Assembly: GCF_017876795.1 (NCBI RefSeq)
Contig: NZ_JAGIOR010000001.1
Span: forward strand, 901,501-965,500
From: Rhizobium leguminosarum
Lineage (GTDB): Bacteria; Pseudomonadota; Alphaproteobacteria; Rhizobiales; Rhizobiaceae
Direction of reading: 5' to 3'
Length of the DNA stretch: 64,000 nt
A program made the position numbers and the translations under genes. This document shows, one piece after another, positions 37,568-39,117 of the stretch. The notes beneath the pieces are model-generated. The model was given only the letters and a program-made list of their open reading frames with translations. It did no database searches and had not been told where the DNA came from. How positions within the stretch are numbered: position 1 is the stretch's first letter; every line of letters starts with the position of its first letter.

Positions 37568-37668
37568 AGCGCGTCGCGATCTTTCAGATTGCTCCTCGCA
37601 CTTCAAGTCTTTGTTTTACGCAGTCGTGATCGCAGAACCGCTGCACAGTTTTGCGCGACATGCCTTAG
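37568..37668. repeat. Class A repeat next to the IS5-family insertion
   Basis: AAGCGCGTCGCGATCTTTCAGATTGCTC...GCACAGTTTTGCGCGACATGC, same orientation as the copies at 42943, 44318 and 53719. It ends at CCTTAG, whose TTAG is the left target duplication of the insertion sequence. On the far side of the IS, class-B sequence begins straight after TTAG, so the IS entered between a class-A and a class-B unit. Confidence 0.75.
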
Positions 37669-39113
37669 CAGGCTGTTGAAAAACGTCCTGGCGCATCGGC
37701 CTTGGTCGTGATTCACTAGCTCTGTTGCGATTTGGAGCTGATGGATGCGCGGCAGCGATGCAAAGACAGGGGAACTTTTCAGCTATGTCGATTTGGAGGA
37801 TCGCGTTCGTCGTGATCATCCGCTACGGGCTATCCGGCAAATCGTGAACGAGGCACTCGTTCTGCTGGAACGAGATTTTGCAGCGCTTTATTCACCGATC
37901 GGACGGCCGTCGATCGCGCCTGAAAAGCTTCTTCGAGCCATGCTTTTGCAAGCCTTCTACTCGATCCGCTCTGAGCGGCTTTTGATGGAGCGGTTGGAAT
38001 ACGACCTTCTTTTCCGCTGGTTCGTCGACATCGGCATTGACGACCCCGCTTGGGACCATTCGGTGTTTTCGAAGAACCGCGACCGGTTGCTCGATGGTGA
38101 CATCGCTGCGAAGTTCCTGGGTGCAATCCTTTCTCAGCCCAAGATAAAGCGGCTGCTGTCAACCGACCACTTCTCTGTCGATGGCACGCTGATCGAAGCC
38201 TGGGCGTCGATGAAGAGCTTTAAGCCGAAGGACGGCTCAGGCGAACCGCCATCGGATGGCGGCGGCCGGAATGCGCAAGCAGACTTCCATGGTGAAAAGC
38301 GTTCCAACGAGACGCATGCTTCAACGACCGACCCGGATGCAAAGCTCTATAGGAAGGGCAAAGGCAAGGAGGCGAAGCTCTGCTTCATGGGGCATGGGCT
38401 GATGGAAAACCGCCATGGCCTGCTGGTCGACGCTTGCCTGACGGAGGCGAGCGGATTTGCCGAACGGGTCGCGGCTCTTGGGATGATTGAACCCTTTTCC
38501 GATCGGCCGCAAGCGATCACGCTGGGTGCCGACAAGGCCTATGACACCAAGGACTTCGTCAAAGACTTGCGGTCGATGAAGGTAACACCCCATGTGGCGC
38601 AGAACATCAACGGGCGCAGCTCAGCCATTGAGGAGGCGTTCGGCTGGATCAAGACTATCGCGGGGCAGGACAAGACGAAGTTCCGCGGCCGAGACCGCGT
38701 CGGATGGGCCTTCACCTTCGCCGCCGCTGCCTATGACTTAGTGAGGTTACCGAAACTGATGGCGGTGTCGTCATGAGCGCGGCTTCAAACTGCCGGCTGA
38801 TTGGTCGCTGGCGGATCGTCGAGGCCGATCTATGGGATCGGGATTATCTCGACCTAGTCGAGCCAGCGGCGATCGCCATCGGCCCAAACGGTCGCGGCGA
38901 AATCGCCTTCGGCGCAATGCAAGCGGGCCTCGATCTCGGCTATGGCCAATCCATAGTTTCCTTCACTTGGTCTGGATTTGACGAGATGGACGAAGTCTCG
39001 GGCGATGGTCATGCTGAGATACTCGAGGATGGCTCGATCGAGATAACCTTCACCTACCACAATGGCGACGAGGCCATCCTCAAAGCCAAACCCGAGACTT
39101 CTTCAACAGCCTG
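37669..39113. mobile_element. IS5-family insertion sequence, 1445 bp, with passenger gene
   Basis: Terminal inverted repeats CAGGCTGTTGAAAAACGTC (left, 37669-) and, inverted at the right end, CAGGCTGTTGAAGAAGTCTC (to 39113): the first 12 bases match, plus scattered matches beyond. A perfect 4-bp target duplication TTAG flanks it (37665-37668 and 39114-39117), matching the YTAR target of IS5-type elements. It carries the transposase and a coupled second gene. The element is apparently complete and recently inserted, since both ends and the duplications are intact. Confidence 0.92.
37745..38776 (+). CDS. IS5-family transposase (DDE)
   Basis: A 343-residue transposase. The N-terminal DUF772-type domain (YVDLEDRVRRDHPLRAIRQIVNEAL, PSIAPEKLLRAMLLQAFYSIRSERLLMERLEYDLLFRWFVDI) is followed by the DDE core: first Asp in FSVDGTLIEAW (about 146), second in LGADKAYD (about 263), Glu in SAIEEAFGWIKTI (about 296). 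A charged insert KSFKPKDGSGEPPSDGGGRNAQADFHGEKR lies between the first two. No frameshift or stop; probably functional. The stop overlaps the passenger's start (ATGA). Confidence 0.93.
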   Translation: MRGSDAKTGELFSYVDLEDRVRRDHPLRAIRQIVNEALVLLERDFAALYSPIGRPSIAPEKLLRAMLLQAFYSIRSERLLMERLEYDLLFRWFVDIGIDDPAWDHSVFSKNRDRLLDGDIAAKFLGAILSQPKIKRLLSTDHFSVDGTLIEAWASMKSFKPKDGSGEPPSDGGGRNAQADFHGEKRSNETHASTTDPDAKLYRKGKGKEAKLCFMGHGLMENRHGLLVDACLTEASGFAERVAALGMIEPFSDRPQAITLGADKAYDTKDFVKDLRSMKVTPHVAQNINGRSSAIEEAFGWIKTIAGQDKTKFRGRDRVGWAFTFAAAAYDLVRLPKLMAVSS

Positions 39114-39117
39114 TTAG
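38773..39117 (+). CDS. IS passenger protein of unknown function
   Basis: A 114-residue acidic protein, MSAASNCRLIGRWRIVEADLWDRDYLDLVEPAAI..., with recurring turns (GRGEIAFGAMQAGLDLGYGQ, GHAEILEDGSIEITFTYHNGDEAIL) suggesting a lipocalin-like or beta-rich fold. Its ATG overlaps the transposase stop (ATGA), so it is translationally coupled. The last Cys codon (TG+T) and the stop TAG are completed by the TTAG target duplication: the element itself ends with ...AACAGCCTG. Any YTAR target gives Cys-stop. No known function; relatives, if any, should be sought next to IS5 transposases. Confidence 0.7.
   Translation: MSAASNCRLIGRWRIVEADLWDRDYLDLVEPAAIAIGPNGRGEIAFGAMQAGLDLGYGQSIVSFTWSGFDEMDEVSGDGHAEILEDGSIEITFTYHNGDEAILKAKPETSSTAC

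Follow-up and report, generated by a model that had tools for sequence, protein, structure and literature searches.

How does a gene end when its reading frame is still open at the last base of the mobile element that carries it? The question is raised by an insertion sequence (IS) in a 64,000-nucleotide stretch of Rhizobium leguminosarum DNA (the window), in which a transposase gene is followed by a second gene, here called the passenger. The element starts with CAGGCTGTTGAA at 37669 and ends with TTCAACAGCCTG at 39113, and its first 12 bases are the reverse complement of its last 12 (Table 1). The original prediction held that the stop codon of the passenger is made by the target-site duplication, and reading across the boundary bears this out. 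Within the element the frame runs ...ACT TCT TCA ACA GCC TG up to base 39113; T39114, which is target DNA, completes the last Cys codon, and the TAG behind it is likewise target DNA, giving ...GCC TG/T TAG (the slash marks the element boundary). That the target supplies the stop follows from the terminal TG of the element together with its NTAR target.

Table 1. Features of the insertion sequence and of its flanks, in positions of the window.
Feature	Position	Strand	Remarks
Left target-site duplication TTAG	37665..37668	.	identical to 39114-39117
Insertion sequence, two genes	37669-39113, 1445 bp	both genes +	sequence read directly
Left terminal inverted repeat CAGGCTGTTGAAAAAC	37669..37684	+	sequence read
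IS5-family transposase	37745..38776	+	NCBIfam NF033581; Pfam DUF772 and DDE_Tnp_1
Junction of in-frame 60-bp deletion in transposase	38629..38630	+	comparison with the 1505-bp sister copy L005
Passenger gene, 114 aa	38773..39117	+	ATGA overlap with transposase; stop TAG 39115-39117 in target duplication
Right terminal inverted repeat CTTCTTCAACAGCCTG	39098..39113	+	passenger codons ..SSTA(C)
Right target-site duplication TTAG	39114..39117	.	T gives TGT (Cys), TAG = stop

We consider it very probable that this is a two-gene IS5-family element whose passenger receives its stop from the target at insertion. The two genes would be translationally coupled through the ATGA overlap. The passenger frame crosses the right inverted repeat and is open up to the final base of the element, and insertion of an element ending in TG at YTAR, mostly CTAG, yields TGN TAR, with the stop taken from the target.

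A stop peculiar to the insertion in the window was ruled out, since the same genome carries eight full-length copies (three of 1445 bp and five of 1505 bp, besides one fragment) and the passenger is ended by the target in all eight. The flanks are CTAG in seven of them, on both sides of the element, and TTAG in the window copy. The window copy and L005 differ by a single gap, with 0 other mismatches over 1445 bases: the 60-bp deletion, which removes 20 aa just before EEAFGW and leaves a transposase of 343 aa, against 363 aa in the five sister copies. The deletion is present in three identical copies (the window, C1:145463-146907, and C3:61397-62841 of this genome, G000), which lie at three sites with different flanks, five undeleted copies being found in the same genome. 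The deleted copies may have been moved in trans or may still be active. This genome also contains many other, weakly matching IS5-type transposase copies (12 matches with 289-aa frames and 9 with 346-aa frames).

Relatives were gathered as 188 loci from the same genome, plasmids, viral contigs and genome collections, in 184 of which 195 passenger matches were found. A recognisable right end (at least 12 of 16 bases like the repeat) was required, which kept 154 matches and dropped 41 of the 195; removal of 22 duplicates by an 80-base key left 132 distinct right ends, loci L189-L196 standing outside this count. The passenger stop lies in the flanking NTAR in 90 of the 132, is TG/A in 2, lies inside the element in 28 and past its end in 12, proportions that differ from nature's as the loci were collected with profiles led by window-type passengers. 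The internal stops fall in frame 1 (22), frame 2 (5) and frame 0 (1), and four of these passengers (L020, L122, L147, L044) look like broken genes. Where the left end and a perfect 4-bp duplication are also present (n = 64), the target makes the stop in 52, TG/A in 1, and an internal codon in 10 (8 in frame 1, 2 in frame 2); the only frame that runs on is that of L157, whose passenger alignment breaks off early. With an intact transposase in addition (n = 47), the corresponding numbers are 38 by the target, 1 by TG/A, 5 inside in frame 1, 2 inside in frame 2 and 1 beyond, so that 46 of the 47 passengers have a legal end of some kind. Intact elements end the passenger in frame 2 by the target or an early stop and in frame 1 by an internal stop; among all frame-2 passengers with a perfect 4-bp duplication (n = 55), the target closes 53 and an internal stop the other 2. 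Another 16 elements possess both ends with an imperfect duplication, often one base apart. Passenger matches were found in 25 of 297 genomes drawn from the family, 23 of 397 from the order, 19 of 385 from the class and 14 of 398 from the phylum, in draws that overlap and all include the genome of the window. The viral contigs yielded one truncated relative only.

The targets of the 64 perfect duplications are CTAG (55), TTAG (6), CTAA (2) and ATAG (1), with no non-NTAR target among them. Of the four YTAR words, CTAG is the one that occurs least often in the window (20 of 120 on the + strand), and the bias for it is therefore the element's. Targets that give no stop were found at some of the right ends: 12 of the 132 have non-NTAR flanks, where the passenger runs past the end in 8 and stops inside in 4, but these copies look decayed or rearranged, because none of the 12 has a matching duplication. 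It had further been predicted that a YTAR target gives Cys followed by a stop. This is mostly what we observed, although the rule proved wider, since any NTAR stops the frame: TGY TAR gives Cys and a stop, TGG TAR gives Trp and a stop, and TG/A is itself a stop one codon earlier. Cys with YTAR as the sole outcome was ruled out by the TG/A stops at the ATAG flanks of L104 and L113 and by the C-terminal Trp of P0021, P0043 and P0070 (the last three known from protein records only). These sequences show the stop made by the target to be real, and general within the window's clade.

The claim of a passenger that ends at the element boundary in every copy survives for most of the window's clade and fails for the IS family, in a second passenger clade (group B) and in some other relatives: the 28 frames closed inside the element include all 10 rows of group B in the passenger tree. 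The passenger of group B has about 40% identity to the window type and lies in another frame, with an internal TGA or TAA by the repeat. We measured the distance between the conserved Gly-Asp codon and the end of the element, which was possible for all but 6 of the 132 right ends. In target-stopped passengers (91 measured of 92) it is 50 nt in 85 and 53 nt in 6, which is the same frame; in frame-1 passengers with an internal stop (21 measured of 22) it is 52 nt in 20, and the TGA or TAA stands just before the CTTCTTC of the repeat. Searches of protein records gave 2380 homologs at E ≤ 1e-3 with the window passenger and 930 with that of group B, sets that may overlap. Among the best 120 of the 2380, a C-terminal Cys stands at the place of the target-made stop in 109, three end in Trp and a few run on. 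A simple motif rule recognised the 11-residue tail in 90 of the best 120 of the 930 group-B homologs, and several of the other 30 were missed by the rule rather than being different. SSTAC, the ending expected of a target-type stop, is found in two frameshifted group-B proteins (P0184, P0200), and two in the third frame (P0164, P0197) run on, all four being known from protein records only. The target-made stop may thus also serve as a backstop that catches frameshifts in one of the three frames.

A tree of the passenger core was built from 93 rows and 107 columns, after broken or short cores had been left out and near-identical ones merged (119 to 93); with so few columns many of its branchings are uncertain. 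The window's clade A and a deep clade C (L011, L171, L145, L173, L185) contain target-made stops. Group B forms one clade of 10 rows (support 100/99), all with internal stops. Internal stops also occur at the base of the window's clade (L127, L138) and within it (L130, L131, L108, L119, L125), and to account for the four states (target, internal frame 1, internal frame 2, beyond) the tree requires 15 changes or more. The order of gain and loss of the target-made stop is unreadable because the root is unsure, the outgroup not being one side of any branch.

The transposases give another picture of group B. In a quick tree with SH-aLRT support only, from which 8 of 55 transposases were left out (7 copies from the genome of the window, and L101, which is a fragment and adjoins an unrelated ORF), the six group-B elements whose transposase is intact lie dispersed between elements of the window type, and a single group-B transposase clade was rejected (log-likelihood 186.5 lower, p-AU 1.67e-58). 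L014 and a copy from the genome of the window are 90% identical in the transposase and 42% in the passenger. Compared with L057, which has the nearest window-type transposase, L014 shows a nucleotide identity of 88-95% over the transposase gene up to its last 15 nt, 66% in those 15 nt and 59% in the passenger; of the 17 last bases of the element, 16 are the same. A similar drop was seen in L037, L169 and L170 against L081; the breakpoint was not clear for L146, nor for L037 against L088. Since the passenger clade is intact but scattered by transposase, and identity drops at the gene junction, passenger and right end have been swapped between transposases, and every cassette has retained its own mode of termination. 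By the transposase tree, the elements with an exchanged passenger and right end are L014, L015, L037, L146, L169 and L170.

Tentatively, and with some doubt, these elements could be read as a class of IS with an exchangeable 3' cassette and two termination types, in which the passenger is a general accessory factor of transposition recruited by different elements. The cassette would consist of the beta-barrel passenger and the right inverted repeat and would have passed between transposases by recombination at the gene junction; one type would leave its stop codon to the insertion target and the other bring its own stop at the repeat. The role as a general accessory factor is suggested because passenger homologs also follow an unrelated, rve-type transposase.

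Whether the match between gene end and target is more than chance is a separate matter. An evolved fit between gene end and target preference had been proposed, by which selection set the passenger frame and keeps it since the target preference guarantees a stop. Consistent with this, all 91 measured target-stopped copies share one frame, the two distances of 50 and 53 nt differing by a whole codon; both clade A and the deep clade C contain target-stopped passengers; and all 64 perfect duplications are NTAR. The proposal is possible but not proved, as one frame in three would fit without any selection. The repeat is not altered to serve the gene. Group B has the same right inverted repeat, and its genes terminate shortly ahead of it and leave the target-made stop unused. 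Group B also prefers CTAG, and the target preference is therefore independent of the gene end. Within clade A itself, L108 and L125, in both of which the transposase is intact and the CTAG duplication perfect, stop internally and have no tail, and L119 also stops inside. On balance, we regard selection for the fit as rather unlikely. The target-supplied stop of the preferred reading may have arisen as the element became more compact, through growth of the gene into the repeat or its trimming onto it, and would have been kept since it gives the gene a legal stop; changes of frame would survive mainly when they come with an internal stop.

It is far less probable still that the arrangement reads out integration, a proper protein end being formed only in the inserted element and a run-on protein from a circle or a wrong target, with an effect on the regulation of transposition. 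Such a read-out follows logically from the passenger frame, and run-on frames are seen at the non-TAR flanks of L064 and L121 and in the proteins P0017, P0050 and P0057 (protein records only). Against this, group B, L108 and L125 manage without a target-made stop, and the tail concerned is encoded by the DNA of the repeat itself, its residues 110-114 being the only part of the predicted passenger structure under pLDDT 50.

The passenger is predicted as a small all-beta, barrel-like domain (mean pLDDT 83.4), and the gene is, as judged by codon substitutions, under purifying selection. Over 399 pairs from 36 elements, pairwise dN/dS had a median of 0.23 in the passenger and 0.15 in the transposase; 43 elements had qualified, six of them copies from the genome of the window that were excluded, and a pair was dropped if its translated part contained a stop or its dS fell outside 0.1-1.2. 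An ATGA or TGATG junction joins the two genes in most intact elements. That the passenger is no gene, only an open frame beside the transposase with a coincidental stop, as its lack of any Pfam or NCBIfam match at E ≤ 1 might suggest, is extremely improbable and was ruled out by the number of homologs and the dN/dS, and the gene junction, the confident fold and the homologs outside the window's IS type speak against it as well. The predicted fold is like that of many small, unrelated beta-barrels, among them designed barrels, the Cap15 receptor domain, avidins and similar lipocalin-like barrels, and fatty-acid-binding proteins. Identity is 7-15% in the 50 structure matches listed, and a profile search of solved chains gave no match better than E 0.5, with three at E 0.5-0.6. 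No function can be inferred from the fold, because the designed barrels score as high. In the reading that we prefer, the passenger may be an accessory protein of transposition or of the relations between element and host, moved as a cassette with the right end.

The transposase places the element among known families. The IS870/IS630 group, which duplicates a 2-bp TA target, was rejected for the window element, as the duplications found here match over 4 bp with variable outer bases. The IS1182 family (NF033551) fits worse than IS5, with 178.6 bits against a cut-off of 270. Against NCBIfam NF033581 (transpos_IS5_4) the window transposase scores 225.2 bits, above the cut-off of 140, and the 363-aa sister transposases score 260.9 bits. 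PMC10359306 gives YTAR as the motif for IS5, and 63 of the 64 perfect duplications found here are YTAR, the other being ATAG. The element is thus like the IS5 family in its transposase score above the curated cut-off and in its 4-bp YTAR duplication, and differs in having a coupled second gene without a family name and a strong CTAG bias.

The principle of a target-made stop is already known from IS870, for which, by the title of the paper, a CTAG target is needed for the stop codon of the large ORF1 (Fournier, Paulus and Otten 1993, J Bacteriol 175:3151, as cited in PMC6471742). Common to both is an element ORF whose stop is made by a CTAG-like target, here that of the passenger in 92 of the 132 right ends, TG/A included. 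By that title it is the large ORF1 that the target ends in IS870, whereas the window transposase ends at its own stop inside the element (TGA 38774-38776). IS870 is moreover listed with the Tc1-mariner-IS630 superfamily (PMC4678618), unlike the window element with its IS5-family score. Among the literature matches listed, no title or opening of an abstract concerned a passenger-gene stop made by the target, which is weak evidence of absence as subscription journals are mostly uncovered. As far as our searches show, what is new is a target-made stop for a second, coupled gene and its conservation, together with the alternative ending in a sister clade and the swapping of cassettes. The element offers a clean natural case of a protein-coding gene that receives its stop codon from the recipient genome, one that spans deep divergence beside relatives with other termination, and the system permits the joint evolution of target preference and gene ends to be tested. 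Further leads are a conserved but unnamed passenger family and the swapping of cassettes within an element of 1.5 kb.

Homologs of the passenger were also seen in other settings. One lies downstream of an rve-type transposase in L190, L193 and L194, three copies in one genome; Pfam rve_3 was matched in L193, the one locus tested, where the ORF just upstream resembles, by eye, a group II intron reverse transcriptase. Rhodococcus (L012), Halomonas (L016) and Dolichospermum (L017) have others at places where a search for the ends of the window-type IS found none. Among these, the Rhodococcus homolog (L012:2995-3345), with no IS ends found around it, shares an ATGA overlap with a downstream 364-aa ORF without a Pfam match and is possibly a cellular relative.
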